Assembly: GCF_012275445.1 (NCBI RefSeq)
Contig: NZ_JAAZQK010000001.1
Coordinates: 1 to 64,000, forward strand
Length of the DNA: 64,000 nucleotides
Reading direction: 5' to 3'
DNA from: Rhizobacter sp. SG703
Lineage (GTDB): Bacteria; Pseudomonadota; Gammaproteobacteria; Burkholderiales; Burkholderiaceae_C
Shown: piece after piece, positions 309 through 23,321 of the stretch
How positions within the stretch are numbered: the stretch's first letter is position 1
How the letters are laid out: each line of letters opens with the position of its first letter
Made by a program: the position numbers and the translations under genes
The notes under the pieces: model-generated
Told to the model about the DNA's origin: nothing
What the model saw: only the letters and a program-made list of their open reading frames with translations
Database searches by the model: none

Positions 309-1459
<1,151 letters not shown>

Positions 1460-1491
1460 GGGGTGCGAGTCCTCTGGGTCAAGTGCTCGTC

Positions 1492-1517
1492 AAAAGGGCC
1501 GGCTTCCCAGCCGGCCC
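1492..1517 (-). terminator. Rho-independent terminator after lamB
   Basis: Read on the minus strand this is a perfect 9-bp stem (GGGCCGGCT / AGCCGGCCC) with a GGGA loop followed directly by TTTT. It sits about 145 bp after the lamB stop and only 32 bp before the malK start, so it probably limits read-through from lamB into malK-malE and sets a higher level of the porin than of the transporter. Confidence 0.8.
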
Positions 1518-1661
1518 CGTACTGCGTCACGGACCCGGCCGCAGCCGGGTCGTCAGGCTGTGAACAGTCCCTTATCAGAACATAAGCTCATCGAAGTACC
1601 TCGGCGCCCGCGCGTGCCTTGCTTCGCAGCGGCGGGCGCGTTCAGCGCTACGCAGTCAGGC

Positions 1662-2906
1662 TCAAAACCAGATTTCAGCCTGGGCACCATAGGAGGTGCC
1701 CTTGGTCTTGCCGTCGGCGTTGCCGGTCAGGCCGTTGGCGCCGGAGGCGGCGTTGGCGGCGTTGTTCCACTTCGCGGTGGTGACGTACAGGCGCAGTTCC
1801 GGACGGTTCCAGAAGCCCGGGCCGGTCGCCAGCGTCGGCGCGAAGGTGAACTTCGCCAGCTTCTGCGTGTCGCTGTCGTCCGGCTTCTTCTGCACGTACG
1901 CCGCTTCGGCCACCAGCTTGAAGTTCTTGGTCAGCGCGTACGAGCCGCGCCCGCCCACCGACACCGACTTCACGTTGGTCGTGTTGCCCAGGCCGTCGTC
2001 CAGCTTGTCGTGTTGGAACATCACCATGCCCTGCCCGCCGAACGGGCCGACCTGCCAGCCCGGGCTCTCGACGATGCGGTAGCTCTTGTTGCCCGAGTTC
2101 GCACCCAGGTTGCCGAAGTTGCCGTTCAGCCCGGCCGAGCCCTGCGCGTACTGCACCCACAGGATGTTGGTGCCGCCCAGCCCCAGCGCGTTGTCCTGGT
2201 TGTGCTGCGCGGTCAGCCCGAAGCCGTTCTTGCCGTCGGTGAAGTCGCCCTTCGTGATCGTGCCCACGATGCGCAGCTTGCCGCCCGGGTTCACCACCAG
2301 CTCCGAGAAGTCCACGTTCACGCGCGAGCCCGGCTTGGTCGAGTCGGCGCTGTCCGAGCGGAACGCCGCGATCGCCAGCTTGCCGCCGCCGACGTCCATG
2401 CTGTCCGCACCGGCGCCCACGCCCGACAGGTTCACGAAGAACGTGTCGACGATGTGCACGTCCGCGCGGCCGTAGAAGCGCTTGCCGATCCAGAAGTTCG
2501 TGTTCGGGGCGATGTCGTAGCCCTTGCCCTCGACATACATCTGGTTGATGCCCAGCTTGCTGTGGTCCAGCGACTGGTTCGTCGCCGGCTGCCCGCTCAG
2601 GCCGCGGTCCACTGCGCCGGTGTCGGTGCCATTGCTGTACAGGTTGGTCATCAGCGCGGCCTTGTATTCCACGCCATCGGCCTTGAAGCCCTGGCTCAGC
2701 AGGAACTCGCCGTAGAAGTCGCACTCGTTGCCGAGCCGGTACTTCATGCCTTCTCCGCCCAGCCCGTAGCAGGCGCGCGACGAGTCCTTCGACGTGGCAC
2801 CCGGGCCGGTGCGGAAGTAGCCGCCCCAATCGACGGCTTGTGCAGAGGTGGCGCTCAACAGACCCATCGCGGCGGCAACGGTTGCGAGCTTGAACTGACT
2901 CTTCAT
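1662..2906 (-). CDS. lamB: Maltoporin-like sugar-specific outer-membrane porin (LamB family)
   Basis: 414 residues. A signal peptide (MKSQFKLATVAAAMGLLS, cleavage after SAQA at about residue 24) precedes VDWGGYFRTGPG, the start typical of LamB-family trimeric 18-strand porins; two Cys in the N-terminal third (ACYGL, NECDFY) match the L1 disulfide of the family, and the chain ends in Phe (AEIWF), the outer-membrane assembly signal. The ATG was chosen because GAGGAG stands 7 nt upstream and the signal peptide begins there; an upstream in-frame ATG would add an unconserved leader. It is divergent from glk and followed by malK-malE. Expression is probably controlled from the operator-rich region upstream. 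Confidence 0.9.
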   Translation of the reverse strand: MKSQFKLATVAAAMGLLSATSAQAVDWGGYFRTGPGATSKDSSRACYGLGGEGMKYRLGNECDFYGEFLLSQGFKADGVEYKAALMTNLYSNGTDTGAVDRGLSGQPATNQSLDHSKLGINQMYVEGKGYDIAPNTNFWIGKRFYGRADVHIVDTFFVNLSGVGAGADSMDVGGGKLAIAAFRSDSADSTKPGSRVNVDFSELVVNPGGKLRIVGTITKGDFTDGKNGFGLTAQHNQDNALGLGGTNILWVQYAQGSAGLNGNFGNLGANSGNKSYRIVESPGWQVGPFGGQGMVMFQHDKLDDGLGNTTNVKSVSVGGRGSYALTKNFKLVAEAAYVQKKPDDSDTQKLAKFTFAPTLATGPGFWNRPELRLYVTTAKWNNAANAASGANGLTGNADGKTKGTSYGAQAEIWF

Positions 2907-3060
2907 CAACTGACTCCTCAGAGGTTTTGCTTTGAAATGTGCCGAGCGCCTGGTCTGGGGGGACCCATTGCTGCAGCGGTTGGGGGAAACGGGCTGGGGC
3001 GAGCGGTTCGCAGTTCGCCCCGAATGGCTGGAAACGTGCGTTGTCTTCCTTGTGCCAGCG

Positions 3061-3075
3061 AGTAGCACGGCTACA
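3061..3075. promoter_or_regulatory. Operator-like palindrome 1 (lamB side)
   Basis: AGTAGCACGGCTACA: half sites GTAGC and GCTAC are perfectly symmetric about a 3-bp centre. It overlaps the expected -10 region of the lamB promoter, the position of a repressor site. It shares the pattern AGTA(N7)CTACA with two other elements in this region. Confidence 0.6.
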
Positions 3076-3099
3076 TCGTTGGCTGTAATGTTTTGTCAA
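3070..3099 (-). promoter_or_regulatory. Possible lamB promoter
   Basis: A perfect -35 hexamer TTGACA (minus strand, 3099-3094) is followed after 18 nt by TGTAGC, a poor -10. The weak -10 lies inside operator-like palindrome 1, and palindrome 2 lies just upstream of the -35, so a regulated sigma-70 promoter is plausible. The start site is not determined. Confidence 0.35.
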
Positions 3100-3109
3100 G
3101 GTTGACTCT

Positions 3110-3124
3110 AGTAATCCGACTACA
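3110..3124. promoter_or_regulatory. Operator-like palindrome 2 (lamB/glk centre)
   Basis: AGTAATCCGACTACA: GTAATC and GACTAC are inverted repeats with one mismatch. On the other strand it begins TGTAGT and ends ATTACT, close to the TGTARTNNNAYTACA form reported for HexR (RpiR family) sites in other proteobacteria; that identification is an inference only. Confidence 0.55.
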
Positions 3125-3232
3125 GCCGGTAAACGCGGGTTTTCCCGTCGTTTATCACAATAACCACACCCATCAGGGAAGTCCCGAATGCCCAGCTGCC
3201 GATACTTTGCGGCCGGCTTGGCTATCATGAAA

Positions 3233-3247
3233 AGTAGTTTGGCTACA
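3233..3247. promoter_or_regulatory. Operator-like palindrome 3 (glk side)
   Basis: AGTAGTTTGGCTACA has the same AGTA(N7)CTACA layout as the other two elements. It begins 4 bp downstream of a TATCAT -10-like hexamer (3223-3228) on the glk strand, where a bound repressor would block glk transcription. Confidence 0.55.
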
Positions 3248-3400
3248 AAGTCGAGCGCACGGTTCGGGTGCATGGCGCGCCGGGCGGAGCGCTTCGAGGG
3301 GGCGCACTCCGCGTCGGAGGCCGCGTGCGAATGGTCGCGCTGCGGCGAGGACCGTTGCCACGGGGTTTGCCTGCGGTGACTCGAACGAGAGAACGTTGAC

Positions 3401-4375
3401 ATGCAGGCAGATTCATATCCGCGGTGGGTCGGTGACGTCGGTGGCACGAACGCGCGTTTCGCGCTGCAGCTGGCGCCTGGCGCCGAGCTGAGCGCCGTCG
3501 ACACCCTTCCGGCGGCCGATCACCCGACGCTGCAGGATGCGATGGCGCATTACCTGCAAACGCATTCGCCGGCGGTGCGCCCGCGCTGGTGCGCGATCGG
3601 CATCGCCAATCCGATCGTCGGCGACCGGGTGCAGATGACCAACCACCACTGGTCGTTCTCGATCGAGGCGGTGCGCCGGACGCTCGGCCTCGAGCGGCTG
3701 TTGCTGATCAACGACTTCACGGCGCTCGCGCTGTCGCTGCCGTCGCTGAAGCCGGCCGAACTGCGGCAGGTGGGCGGCGGGGCGGTGGTCGACGGCGCGC
3801 CGGTCGGGCTGATCGGCCCGGGCACCGGGCTCGGCGTGTCGGGCCTGTTGCGGGTGCCGGGCAGCGAGCGCGTGGTGCCGCTGAACGGGGAGGGCGGCCA
3901 TGTGACGCTCGGCGGCGCGACGCCGCGCGAGGATGCGGTGATTGCGGCGTTGCGCCAGCGCTACGGCCATGCGTCAGCCGAGCGGGCCTTGTCGGGCCCG
4001 GGGCTGGTGAGCCTGTACGAGGCGCTGTGCCAGGTCGACCGCGCCACCGCGCATCCGTTGAGCGCGGCCGAGGTCAGCGAGCGCGCAGTGGCGGCGAGCG
4101 ACGCGCATTGCGTCGAGGCGCTCGACATGTTCTTCGCGCTGCTCGGCAGCGTGGCCGGCAACCTGGCGCTGTCGCTCGGCACGCGCGGCGGGATGTACAT
4201 CGGCGGCGGCATCGTGCCGCGCCTGGGCGACCGGATCGACCGATCGACCTTCCGCGAGCGCTTCATCGCGAAGGGGCGGTTCCGGGCCTACCTGGATGCG
4301 ATGCCGACCTTCGTGGTGCAGGCCAGCACCTCGCCGGCCTTGCTCGGCGCGCTGCGGGCGCTGGACGACCTGTAG
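3401..4375 (+). CDS. glk: Glucokinase
   Basis: 324 residues, close to E. coli Glk (321). ATP-dependent phosphorylation of glucose to glucose-6-phosphate in the cytosol. The phosphate-binding loop VGDVGGTNARF is at residues 10-20, the second nucleotide motif LIGPGTGLGVSGL is in the middle, and the C-terminal GGMYIGGGIVPR is the family adenosine-binding segment. The ATG has GAGAG about 10 nt upstream. Divergent from lamB-malK-malE and sharing its putative operators, it would feed glucose released from imported maltodextrin into the Entner-Doudoroff or glycolytic pathway. Confidence 0.93.
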   Translation: MQADSYPRWVGDVGGTNARFALQLAPGAELSAVDTLPAADHPTLQDAMAHYLQTHSPAVRPRWCAIGIANPIVGDRVQMTNHHWSFSIEAVRRTLGLERLLLINDFTALALSLPSLKPAELRQVGGGAVVDGAPVGLIGPGTGLGVSGLLRVPGSERVVPLNGEGGHVTLGGATPREDAVIAALRQRYGHASAERALSGPGLVSLYEALCQVDRATAHPLSAAEVSERAVAASDAHCVEALDMFFALLGSVAGNLALSLGTRGGMYIGGGIVPRLGDRIDRSTFRERFIAKGRFRAYLDAMPTFVVQASTSPALLGALRALDDL

Positions 4376-20127: not shown

Positions 20128-20370
20128 TCAGCGGCTGCACGGCAGCACTGCGTCGTTGCTGGCTTCAGGCTGCGCGTCGCGTTGATCGGACACACCTTGC
20201 TGCAGCCATTCGAGCGCGGCCGCGCCGGGGTCCATTCCTTGCCAATAGGGCTCCGAGATCAGTGCCCACGCGAGGTGCTCAAGATCGCTGCGGTCGACGC
20301 GCGGCCATTGTTCGTGCAGGCGCTCGGCGCACTTCAGCGCCCAGTTTTCGGAAGTCATGTCGGGGTTCAT
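20128..20370 (-). CDS. Small conserved-looking protein behind a LexA box (SOS gene candidate)
   Basis: 80 residues, not recognised. It is hydrophilic and rich in Trp (NWALKCAERLHEQW, HLAWAL, YWQGM, ALEWLQQ), predicted mainly helical, with no signal peptide or membrane span; the last ~20 residues look disordered. A second Met at position 5 is an alternative start and neither start has a strong Shine-Dalgarno. The support for it being a gene is its position: the frame fills the gap to the convergent hydrolase and begins 46 bp downstream of a perfect palindromic LexA site. Confidence 0.6.
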   Translation of the reverse strand: MNPDMTSENWALKCAERLHEQWPRVDRSDLEHLAWALISEPYWQGMDPGAAALEWLQQGVSDQRDAQPEASNDAVLPCSR

Positions 20371-20415
20371 CGCAGTCGTTCGGCGGAGTCGAGGAGCGAT
20401 GCATCGTAGCGATGA

Positions 20416-20433
20416 ACTGTACGAACGTACAGT
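20416..20433. promoter_or_regulatory. LexA (SOS) box
   Basis: A perfect 18-bp palindrome ACTGTACGAACGTACAGT containing CTGT-N8-ACAG (20417-20432), the LexA consensus of gamma- and betaproteobacteria. On the minus strand TACGAT, a possible -10, lies just downstream, so bound LexA would cover the promoter of the 80-residue gene. No gene on the plus strand is positioned to be its target. Confidence 0.75.
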
Positions 20434-20469
20434 ATTTCCGAGTGCTGTCTGCAGCTGTCAGTTGCGTGC

Positions 20470-20477
20470 CTCAAAAC
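20470..20477. repeat. 8-bp target-site duplication, left copy
   Basis: CTCAAAAC directly abuts the left terminal inverted repeat of the IS66-derived cassette and is repeated exactly at 21746-21753 next to the right end. Eight-base duplications are characteristic of the IS66 family. Confidence 0.75.
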
Positions 20478-20533
20478 GTAAGCGCGCTTTGAGCTACGTC
20501 CTTGCTTCGCAGCCCATTGTTGGACGCGGGCAG

Positions 20534-21298
20534 TCAGGCTGGCGTCTCGGCCCGACGCCCGACGAGCACCGGCTGGAACAGAACATTGTCGAGACGCTGA
20601 ACTTCAAATAGGCCCGCTTCGCTCATTAGCTCCTGCAACCGGTCAGTGGTCACCGCGTAATAGCGACTTGTTAAGACCTGCGTCGTGCAGCGACCGTCAG
20701 GCTGTTCAGTCGTGAGGTACATGCGCAAGTCATAGCAGTCGCGATCCCACTCCCACACCTGGACGGCAAGGAAGCGCGTGCCATCACGGTCGAGGTGTAG
20801 GCCGTACGGGCGAACGTCGGGTGAGCGGCGCTCAATGGCGCCGTAGTCACGGACCGAGAGCACCAGCCAGCCGCCAGGGCGTAGGACGCGATGGGCATTG
20901 CGCAGCGCCTGCAGGATCTCAGCATCGGTCAGCAGGTGTGGCAGGCTGTTATCGCAGACGAGGACAGCGGCGCAGCTGCAGTCGGCCGTGCCTTGCAGTG
21001 TGCGAAGGTCGTCGACGCGAACGCTGGCCCGCAGGCCACGTGCATCAAGTTCTTGTCGCAGTCGGGCGACCGCGCCCGGCGAGAGGTCCGAGGCGTCTAC
21101 CGCGTAGCCCCGGGCGAGCAAGCCCAGCGCCTGCGTGCCAATACCGCAGGCTGCGTCAAGAACAGGCTCGCCCGGCTCCACGCCCCGCATGTGTAGAAGG
21201 CGCGCCAGCGCCTCGCCCTGCGTTCGCACGGCGGCATCCCAGTCGCCATAGAGCAGGTGGTAGAAGGGCGCGAGCCGGTCGTAGAAGTCGCTGCTCAT
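20534..21298 (-). CDS. Class I SAM-dependent methyltransferase (passenger of IS66-like cassette)
   Basis: 254 residues from the Met of SSDFYDRLAPFYHLLYGDW. Rossmann methyltransferase: motif I VLDAACGIGTQAL at about 46-58, acidic motif II DASDLS, motif III region LVCDNSLPHLL, then VLRPGGWLVLSV. The overall pattern resembles small-molecule N- or O-methyltransferases such as the glycine/sarcosine type, but the substrate is not evident. The reading frame is open upstream through the tnpA remnant, giving a possible 375-residue fusion; no Shine-Dalgarno is obvious before the internal ATG. It lies within the IS66-derived cassette. Confidence 0.8.
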   Translation of the reverse strand: MSSDFYDRLAPFYHLLYGDWDAAVRTQGEALARLLHMRGVEPGEPVLDAACGIGTQALGLLARGYAVDASDLSPGAVARLRQELDARGLRASVRVDDLRTLQGTADCSCAAVLVCDNSLPHLLTDAEILQALRNAHRVLRPGGWLVLSVRDYGAIERRSPDVRPYGLHLDRDGTRFLAVQVWEWDRDCYDLRMYLTTEQPDGRCTTQVLTSRYYAVTTDRLQELMSEAGLFEVQRLDNVLFQPVLVGRRAETPA

Positions 21299-21661
21299 TT
21301 GGGCGGATCGTTGTCGGGCTGCGGTCAACGATACCGCAGGCGCCCAGTCGAGCCTGCAAGCACAGCGCCCCTCGGCCCCCACGGTCGACGACGGAGCTTC
21401 CATCGTGACCGGGACGAGCGCCGCGCCACGCTCCGGCGGTACAACGAGCGCACGCTGGCGCCGCTCGGCGCTCTCGCGGATCCAGCGGCCAAGCTGGTTG
21501 GCGTTGACGCCGCACTCGCGTGCCAAGCGCGACACCAGACGCTCTGGGCGCGGTGCACATGGAGACCAGTTCGCCTTTGCCTGCTCGTCGTACACGACCC
21601 GTCCATCGCGCTTGTGGTCCACGACCAGCCGGCGCGCCAGCTCTTCCATACCTTCAGACAT
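21299..21661 (-). pseudogene. tnpA: IS66 TnpA (OrfA) remnant, in frame with the methyltransferase
   Basis: The translated start EELARRLVVDHKRDGRVVYDEQAK and the helix-turn-helix segment SRLARECGVNANQLGRWI match IS66-family TnpA accessory proteins. Between them the sequence NWSPCAPRPE does not fit, but the neighbouring frame reads GELVSMCTAPRASGV, which does; two compensating small indels therefore seem to have shifted ~14 codons. After residue ~105 similarity is lost and the frame runs on into the methyltransferase without a stop. Probably non-functional. Confidence 0.65.
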
Positions 21662-21745
21662 CGCGTTCCCACTTTGACCTGCGTGGGCACGTAGCCTGTC
21701 AGCCTCGGCGCCCGGGCTTGAGGACGTGGTTCAATGACCGCGCAC

Positions 21746-21753
21746 CTCAAAAC
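21746..21753. repeat. 8-bp target-site duplication, right copy
   Basis: CTCAAAAC, identical to the left copy at 20470-20477, directly adjoining the right terminal repeat and ending 3 bp before the sorB stop codon (minus strand). It marks the original integration site. Confidence 0.75.
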
Positions 21754-21756
21754 GCA

Positions 21757-22104
21757 TCACGGCGCGACCTGTTCGTTGCCATAGGTCTTCACCAGGTAGT
21801 CGATGATGGCCGGCATGTCGGCGTCGGCGACAGGCGCCTTGAAGACGCCCTTCATGCGCTTGACCATCGCGTCCCAGTAGGGACGTGCGGCGGTCGGCGG
21901 CTGGTAGGCCATGTACTCGGCTGAGTGGCAGGCGGTGCAGTGGGCCTGCGCCTTCTCGAAGCCGGGCAGCGCGCTCGGCTTGAGTTGCAGGCCGTCGGGC
22001 GGCAGTTCGATGTTCTTCGGCACCGCGGGCGCCGGCGTCGGCCACGCGGTGGCAAGTGCGATGGCGACCAGCGCGAGCGCAAGCAGGGACGAACGATTCT
22101 TCAT
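21757..22104 (-). CDS. sorB: Sulfite dehydrogenase cytochrome c subunit SorB
   Basis: 115 residues, the usual size of SorB. A signal peptide (MKNRSSLLALALVAIALA, ending near PAPA) exports it to the periplasm; the single haem c attachment site CTACH is at 56-60. It accepts electrons from SorA and passes them to the respiratory chain. The ATG used has GAGGAG upstream; another ATG five codons earlier overlaps the sorA stop as ATGA and is an alternative start. The IS66-derived cassette is inserted just after its stop, leaving the gene intact. Confidence 0.85.
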   Translation of the reverse strand: MKNRSSLLALALVAIALATAWPTPAPAVPKNIELPPDGLQLKPSALPGFEKAQAHCTACHSAEYMAYQPPTAARPYWDAMVKRMKGVFKAPVADADMPAIIDYLVKTYGNEQVAP

Positions 22105-22115
22105 GGCCTGGCTCC

Positions 22116-23321
22116 TCATGCGGCGTGGACGCGGATCGATTCGACGACGTTGCGCATGTAGCCCGCGGGCTGCCACAGCGCTTCCATCGGCTGGCTCTGG
22201 CCGGAGCGGTTCCAGGCCCGCACGCGCAGCTCGTGCGGACCCCTGTCGGGCGTGAAGCCGAAGCTGAACTCGCGGAACGAGTAGCGGCCGATGTCGGTGC
22301 CGAGCTTCGCGCCACGCCAGCTCTGGCCGCCGTCGGTCGAGTACGCGACCTCCCGGATGCCCTGGCCGCCGTCGAACGCGATGCCGCGCACGGCGATCGG
22401 CTGGCCGGCGTTCACGCGCGCACCATCGGCCAGCGAGGTGATGAAGGAGCGCACGTTGAAGCGGCCGATCGGGCGCGTCGACTTCGGGGTCGTGCCGGGC
22501 TCGATGCAGGTGCAGTCGTTGTCGGGCACGCGGTAGGCGGTCTTCATCCAGAAGCCGTCGAAGGTGTCGTCGACGACCTCGATCTCCGACAGGTGCTTGA
22601 CCCAGTAGGTGCCATAGTGGCCCGGCACGATGAGCTTGACCGGGTAGCCATTGAGCAGCGGGATGTCGGCGCCGTTCATCTGGTAGGCGAGCATCACCTC
22701 GCCGTCCATCGCGTGGGCGATGTCCAGCGCCTTCACGAAATCTCCGCCGCCGAAGAGCGCGATGTCCAGGCCGTTGAAGCTGACCTGGCGTGCGCTGTTC
22801 TTCGGTTCGGCCCGGGCCAGCACGTCCTTCAGCGGCACGCCCAGCCAGCGCGCATTGCCCATTGCACCGTTGCCGAGTTGCCCGCCGGTGACGCGGGGGC
22901 TGAAGAAGCCGCGGCTGTTGCCCGAGCACTGGTTGACGGCGACGATCTCGGTCGGCTTGAACTGCGTGCGCAGCGCGCTGAAGCTCAGCTCGTAGGGCTT
23001 GGCGAGCGCGTTGCCACCGATCTTGATGACGTGCGTGTCGGCGTCGATCGAGGTCGGGATGCCGGCGTTGTGATAGCGCACGAAGAAGGCATCGTTGGGT
23101 GTCAGGAGGCCGTCGTTGAAGACCTCGAAGGGCGTTTCGAGCTGCGGCGGCCGCGAGGTCAGCACGATCAGCGGGCGCTTCTCGGGGAAGGCGACGAGGT
23201 TGCGCCTGCCATTGGCGAAGGGAAGGTCGATGGGCATGGGCGCCTGTGCGAGGGCATGGCGTGCCAGCGTGGCACCGGCCAGCAGGCCGGCGCTGCCGGC
23301 AAGAAGTCTGCGACGTTGCAT
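22116..23321 (-). CDS. sorA: Sulfite:cytochrome c oxidoreductase molybdopterin subunit SorA
   Basis: 401 residues. Oxidises sulfite to sulfate in the periplasm. A twin-arginine leader (MQRRRLLAGS, ending near HALA) exports the folded cofactor-bound enzyme. The molybdenum ligand Cys132 is in VNQCSGNSRGFF, followed by the family stretch GGQLGNGAMGNARW; the C-terminal half is the Mo-co dimerisation domain. GGAG lies 7 nt before the ATG. It is followed by sorB with a 4-nt overlap of the alternative sorB start. The order and the small monohaem partner fit SorAB rather than SoxCD. Confidence 0.88.
   Translation of the reverse strand: MQRRRLLAGSAGLLAGATLARHALAQAPMPIDLPFANGRRNLVAFPEKRPLIVLTSRPPQLETPFEVFNDGLLTPNDAFFVRYHNAGIPTSIDADTHVIKIGGNALAKPYELSFSALRTQFKPTEIVAVNQCSGNSRGFFSPRVTGGQLGNGAMGNARWLGVPLKDVLARAEPKNSARQVSFNGLDIALFGGGDFVKALDIAHAMDGEVMLAYQMNGADIPLLNGYPVKLIVPGHYGTYWVKHLSEIEVVDDTFDGFWMKTAYRVPDNDCTCIEPGTTPKSTRPIGRFNVRSFITSLADGARVNAGQPIAVRGIAFDGGQGIREVAYSTDGGQSWRGAKLGTDIGRYSFREFSFGFTPDRGPHELRVRAWNRSGQSQPMEALWQPAGYMRNVVESIRVHAA

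Follow-up and report, generated by a model that had tools for sequence, protein, structure and literature searches.

IS66 elements have GTAA-type ends and generate 8-bp target duplications, and methyltransferase passengers are known in IS1595 elements. According to the available text of PMC12888890, the IS66 element ISPa75 carries fosZ downstream of its transposase and was present in 159 strains, and 7 of the 25 Pseudomonas IS66 elements in ISfinder bear passengers ('tIS66'). In the same text, fosZ is supposed to have been entrapped by IS66 elements with ends resembling two different relatives. Transporter ISs, as well as transposase-less derivatives such as mobile insertion cassettes (MICs), are also on record (PMC3129680, available part).

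The locus described here lies in a 64-kb stretch of DNA, referred to as the window. A 1268-bp insert in it is very probably the remnant of an IS66-family 'transporter IS' that carried a passenger methyltransferase and is now missing about 2.1 kb. The features of the region are given below, with reference to G002, a genome of the same genus, and L022, a 3944-bp contig from a Burkholderiaceae metagenome genome.

20470..20477, no strand: target-site duplication copy 1 (CTCAAAAC), present as a single copy at the G002 empty site
20478..21745, minus strand: insert of 1268 bp, an internally deleted IS66-family element with its passenger, recognized from its ends, the G002 empty site and the L022 counterpart
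20478..20502, plus strand: right terminal inverted repeat (methyltransferase end), beginning GTAAGCGCGCTTTGAG, from the terminal alignment
20534..21298, minus strand: class I SAM-dependent methyltransferase carried as passenger, 254 aa when counted from its own ATG and in the reading frame of the tnpA fragment
21344..21345, no strand: deletion joint, where tnpA runs straight into the upstream region of the methyltransferase, with no equivalent for about 2109 bp of the L022 element
21345..21661, minus strand: tnpA fragment, about the first 105 codons, of which about a dozen are out of frame relative to its relatives
21721..21745, minus strand: left terminal inverted repeat (tnpA end), GTGCGCGGTCATTGAACCACGTCCT, with outermost bases off the GTAAGC pattern
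21746..21753, no strand: target-site duplication copy 2 (CTCAAAAC), 3 bp beyond the sorB-like stop codon
21757..22104, minus strand: sorB-like cytochrome c gene, 115 aa, flanking the insert and in the same direction as its ORF

The CTCAAAAC repeats are exact over 8 bp and enclose 1268 bp; the same sequence occurs four times on the plus strand of the window and not on the other strand. The terminal 25-mers of the insert match at 18 of 25 positions, whereas only 8 of 200,000 random 25-mer pairs drawn from the window matched at 18 positions or more. One end begins with GTAAGCG, and the first 15 bases of this right end are those of the outer right end of the L022 element. The other end begins with GTGCGCG, and its outermost bases depart from the IS66 pattern, which could reflect decay or a different end type. 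The repeats, the segment length, the 18/25 ends and the GTAAGCG start had all been reported in the preliminary description of this DNA and are confirmed.

That description had also suggested looking for an empty site with a single CTCAAAAC next to sorB. A joined-flank search in 11 genomes of the genus gave matches in five, the own genome included; a single match spanned the two flanks in G002 alone. There, 340 of 354 bases were identical without gaps around one CTCAAAAC, which represents a clean empty site, and no methyltransferase was present. In G008, the left flank and CTCAAAACGCATCA were found, after which the sequence differs, and the flank matches in G004 and G006 were each 38 bp long. 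Thus, with the empty site seen in one relative, G002, the 1268-bp segment was inserted with the exact 8-bp duplication that is a hallmark of IS66, as had been proposed. Retention of the methyltransferase at this locus in relatives devoid of the repeats, which had been named as evidence against an insertion, was not observed among the 11 genomes, where the flanks were joined only in G002 and without the gene.

The methyltransferase could in principle be a resident chromosomal gene with repeats around it by chance, and homologues without nearby IS66 genes do exist (18 loci in 17 genomes). The probability of this explanation is negligible: it is refuted by the G002 empty site, and both the intact mobile counterpart in L022 and the rarity of the end match among random pairs stand against it.

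The flanking sorB-like cytochrome gene, whose name follows the preliminary description, is intact, since the nearer duplication copy lies 3 bp past its stop codon. A Pfam search with its product gave no match, and the gene upstream of it matches Oxidored_molyb. The reading frame of the insert is co-directional with these sorAB-like genes, and 95 bp separate its start from the sorB-like gene (window 21661-21757). Judging from this arrangement, read-through expression from the sorAB-like genes is possible and the methyltransferase may still be expressed. A simple scan of 20300-22200 found neither promoter-like nor terminator-like sites (0 of each); shuffled sequence gave means of 0.2 and 1.1, respectively, so that this result is little informative.

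The tnpA fragment and the methyltransferase form one continuous ORF (20534-21661, minus strand, 375 aa). The tnpA part matched NCBIfam IS66_ISRel24_TnpA over residues 24-102 (E 1.9e-9, 38 bits, below the cut-off of 74) and Pfam HTH_Tnp_1 with 20.3 bits, below the cut-off of 24.1. Its ATG is base 85 of the insert, and the corresponding positions are 85 in L022 and 86 in both the Variovorax and G216 elements. An IS66-like tnpA at the distance from its end expected of an intact element, as originally described, is therefore correct as to the distance, but the gene is partial, being truncated at about codon 105 with a stretch out of frame. With tnpB and tnpC absent and tnpA partial, the insert is an IS66 derivative and not a complete IS66 element. 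The SAM-dependent methyltransferase reported inside it was borne out by a match to PF13649 (Methyltransf_25, E 2.9e-16). With NCBIfam it scored at best 68 bits, where the cut-off is 175, which indicates generic kinship, and its closest solved chains include glycine sarcosine N-methyltransferases as well as putative methyltransferases.

When genome contigs were scanned with the 375-aa protein, an approach limited to close relatives, 21 matches to the pattern were obtained, and of these L022 alone was a relative. The L022 element is 3386 bp long (353-3738) and has the order tnpA-tnpB-tnpC-methyltransferase. Its ends are GTAAGCGCGCAATTAACCACGTCC and GTAAGCGCGCTTTGAACCACGTCC, with GTAAGCGCGC at the ends, and it is flanked by exact 8-bp repeats GATTGATC. 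The tnpB product matches TnpB_IS66 (E 2.9e-37) and that of tnpC matches DDE_Tnp_IS66 (E 2.3e-86). L022 353-3738 is thus a complete element with a passenger between tnpC and the right end, i.e. a tIS66, whereas the window insert, which has no tnpC, is not. A full-length IS66 element with matching ends, another proposed check, was therefore found, and it bears the same cargo; a lack of such elements, the second point that would have spoken against the proposal, did not occur.

Alignment of the insert with L022 gave two blocks, a methyltransferase arm (752/869, 87%) and a tnpA arm (179/253, 71%), and no matching block besides these; the stretch of about 2109 bp that separates the arms in L022 is absent from the insert. 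The two methyltransferases are 88.6% identical. Since the arms differ in identity, L022 is a relative and not the parent; a full-length parent was not found, L022 being the sole intact counterpart detected. In the intact L022 element the methyltransferase lies behind tnpC, and it is therefore a passenger that did not replace the transposition genes, contrary to the initial interpretation: it is an extra gene, and the window insert has lost tnpB, tnpC and the end of tnpA. By descent, the insert would be a tIS66 derivative.

The following history would best explain these observations. The intact form would have the order tnpA-tnpB-tnpC followed by the methyltransferase before the right terminal repeat, and would insert by means of its IS66 transposase, duplicating 8 bp. 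Such an element, or an already deleted copy, would have landed just behind the sorB-like gene in an ancestor, probably after the split from G002. The missing 2.1 kb or so, from inside tnpA to just before the methyltransferase, was probably removed by a single deletion, which would have left the two ends, a reading frame shared by the tnpA fragment and the methyltransferase, and no transposase of its own.

At E<=1e-30, 12 of the 399 family genomes and 7 of the 399 order genomes had a homologue of the methyltransferase; at E<=1e-50, 2 of the 369 class genomes did. These sets overlap, G000 being in all three and G155 in two. Excluding the own genome, they correspond to 18 loci in 17 genomes. No tnpA, tnpB or tnpC relative was detected at E<=1e-3 around these 18 loci, 11 of which were examined with flanks of about 5 kb, or less where the contig was shorter, and 7 with flanks of 1.5 kb. 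The same was true, at E<=1e-3, of three plasmid methyltransferase loci out of 52 matching plasmid records. Among 22 proteins placed in a tree, the methyltransferases of the window and L022 are sisters (100/99) within a group of ten that also contains seven free-standing genes of the window's family or order and one Gemmatirosa plasmid gene. Between the window and L022, dS is 0.391 (0.29-0.52) and dN 0.058. The resulting dN/dS of 0.149 suggests that the protein was kept working for most of this divergence, the present use of the window copy being a separate matter.

The preliminary description further held that the insert was mobilised in trans. In its fuller form, this explanation implies a non-autonomous, MIC-like cassette that was deleted beforehand, was moved by an IS66 transposase and may move again with a partner; it differs from the history given above only in the order of deletion and insertion. 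The insert does have the trait of a mobile insertion cassette, with IS ends around a non-transposition gene and no transposase, the tnpA fragment being left over. Both ends and an exact duplication survive around this transposase-less element, and the methyltransferase was under purifying selection, which is in keeping with such a cassette. Mobilisation in trans is possible, and a full element that inserted and then lost its genes in place fits the data equally well. Several results argue against movement in trans. The insert is present in a single copy in its own genome, multiple copies having been one of the suggested checks, although a second IS66 copy could sit in a gap of this 29-contig assembly. 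None of the 18 other methyltransferase loci (399 family, 399 order and 369 class genomes) had an IS66 tnp relative in the flanks examined, and the genome-contig scan, limited to close relatives, gave L022 alone. Moreover, the assembly yielded a single IS66 transposase, which shares 31-32% identity with L022 TnpC and belongs to an element with GTATGCGTCCGG ends. We regard a cassette moved in trans as possible but doubtful, and the claim as it was made is unsupported.

The resident IS66 element (L088, 2214-5043, contig C6) has ends GTATGCGTCCGGCGAA with a 22/24 match and an exact duplication GGCCCAGC; one TGA lies inside its match to L022 TnpC. It was considered as a helper and rejected, as its ends show no match to those of the insert. 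Being of a different lineage and having different ends, its transposase is unlikely to serve those of the insert. In viral contigs, seven stretches matched a pattern, and 0 of them proved to be a relative. The out-of-frame tnpA stretch, the tnpA-side end off GTAAGC, the single copy and the lack of a matching transposase point to a stranded remnant, of which this copy would now be immobile in this genome.

The insert was also compared with IS66 elements more widely. Of 24 IS66-bearing loci, 13 had a pair of ends flanked by an identical 8-bp repeat, in a search that permitted up to one mismatch in the repeat. Six of the 13 are ordinary elements of 2498-2658 bp, whose ends are of the GTAAGCG type and whose 8-bp duplications are exact. 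Cargo is present at five loci: L022, two 3400-bp copies in Variovorax sp. WDL1, each with its own duplication (TCCGCTTC and GATGGAAT), and two 3420-bp loci on Acidovorax carolinensis plasmids, which have the duplication CTGTGTTT in common. All four Variovorax and Acidovorax elements carry a UPF0149 gene behind tnpC. A 4024-bp end pair at L080 was set aside as probably due to chance, its far end lying about 1.5 kb beyond tnpA. Another locus (L087, G286) contains a 6131-bp IS66 element with an exact duplication TGACAAAC, in which about 3.4 kb of other DNA interrupt tnpC.

UPF0149 (SEC-C) is a recurrent passenger behind tnpC in two diverged Comamonadaceae IS66 lineages (L098, L099, L065), and an open-access literature search returned 0 papers with both IS66 and UPF0149. 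On plasmid 4 of Variovorax sp. WDL1 (L026, 3917-8797), one IS66 element lies inside another at the tnpA/tnpB boundary with the duplication TCCGCTTC, and the inner element has the UPF0149 gene behind tnpC.

At 12 of the 24 loci, the tnpC match is followed after 62-91 bp by a sequence resembling a right end. In L022, GTAAGCGCGC occurs at 2849-2858 (minus strand), 63 bp behind the tnpC match, where the ordinary relatives end. This inner copy equals the first ten bases of the working ends and diverges further in, the working end lying at 943 bp. The 10-mer occurs 15 times in 572,168 bases, a count that includes true ends and repeatedly sampled loci, and at this rarity a chance origin of the inner copy is unlikely. 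This copy may represent the original right end, skipped at cargo uptake. A broader model would be that IS66 elements acquire and exchange cargo in units consisting of a gene and a right end: an element would land beside such a unit, its own right end would be skipped and decay, and the distal end would be used. L022 would then be a caught intermediate, and deleted remnants like that of the window parked donors. We consider this model unlikely as it stands and offer it as speculation.

G208 contains a cargo-less element fragment whose TnpC is 94% identical to that of L022, with one internal stop; it ends 73 bp behind the tnpC match and gave no tnpA or tnpB match. Relative to L022, dS is lower for the G208 TnpC, 0.235 (0.18-0.30), than for the window methyltransferase. 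This may hint that cargo was gained, lost or exchanged between closely related IS66 backbones, with the reservation that the dS intervals touch and gene rates may differ. The same observation, that a cargo-less TnpC is nearer to L022 than the window's cargo is, would also fit a hybrid insert, in which the cargo and right end come from one IS66 backbone and the tnpA arm from another, with no simple deletion of an L022-like element. The dS values against L022, 0.94 (0.49-2.09) for well-aligned tnpA codons and 0.39 for the methyltransferase, point in this direction, but their intervals overlap, and tnpA generally diverges fast (L022 versus Variovorax: tnpA 1.1, TnpC 0.7). An exchange of UPF0149 cargo between IS66 backbones, suggested by a step in DNA identity at the cargo, was rejected, the dS values of UPF0149 cargo and transposase being nearly equal (0.84 and 0.87). 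A hybrid origin of the window insert seems rather unlikely, and a deleted, L022-like transporter IS is the reading we retain.

This locus documents an IS66 element with methyltransferase cargo together with a step in its decay towards a host-resident gene, the age of which is bounded by the empty site. The vestigial inner end of L022 suggests a concrete route by which simple insertion sequences could acquire passenger genes, and in Pseudomonas an element built in the same way has a fosfomycin-resistance gene as its cargo (PMC12888890, available text). No IS66 element with a methyltransferase passenger appeared in the available text of the open-access literature searched; ISfinder, outside this search, may list one.

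MICs and transposase-less IS derivatives, as far as they are described in the available parts of PMC3129680 and PMC3281130, resemble the insert in having IS-type ends and a duplication around a gene and no transposase. Unlike them, the insert keeps a tnpA fragment, and neither another copy of it nor a transposase that matches it was detected. The UPF0149 elements of Variovorax sp. WDL1 and Acidovorax carolinensis are related to it, with a passenger at the same place and exact 8-bp duplications, but their cargo lies on the opposite strand and tnpA, tnpB and tnpC are all present within 3400 and 3420 bp. The tIS66 ISPa75-fosZ, in the available text of PMC12888890, shares the order of IS66 tnpA, tnpB and transposase followed by one passenger before the right terminal repeat, the GTAA-type ends and a passenger gene with relatives outside mobile elements, and its left part resembles one IS66 element and its right end another. 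That element is intact with fosfomycin-resistance cargo, whereas the window copy has a methyltransferase as cargo and has lost its transposition genes. Taken together, the window insert is a deleted, MIC-like tIS66 derivative with methyltransferase cargo, and belongs to a kind of element already known.
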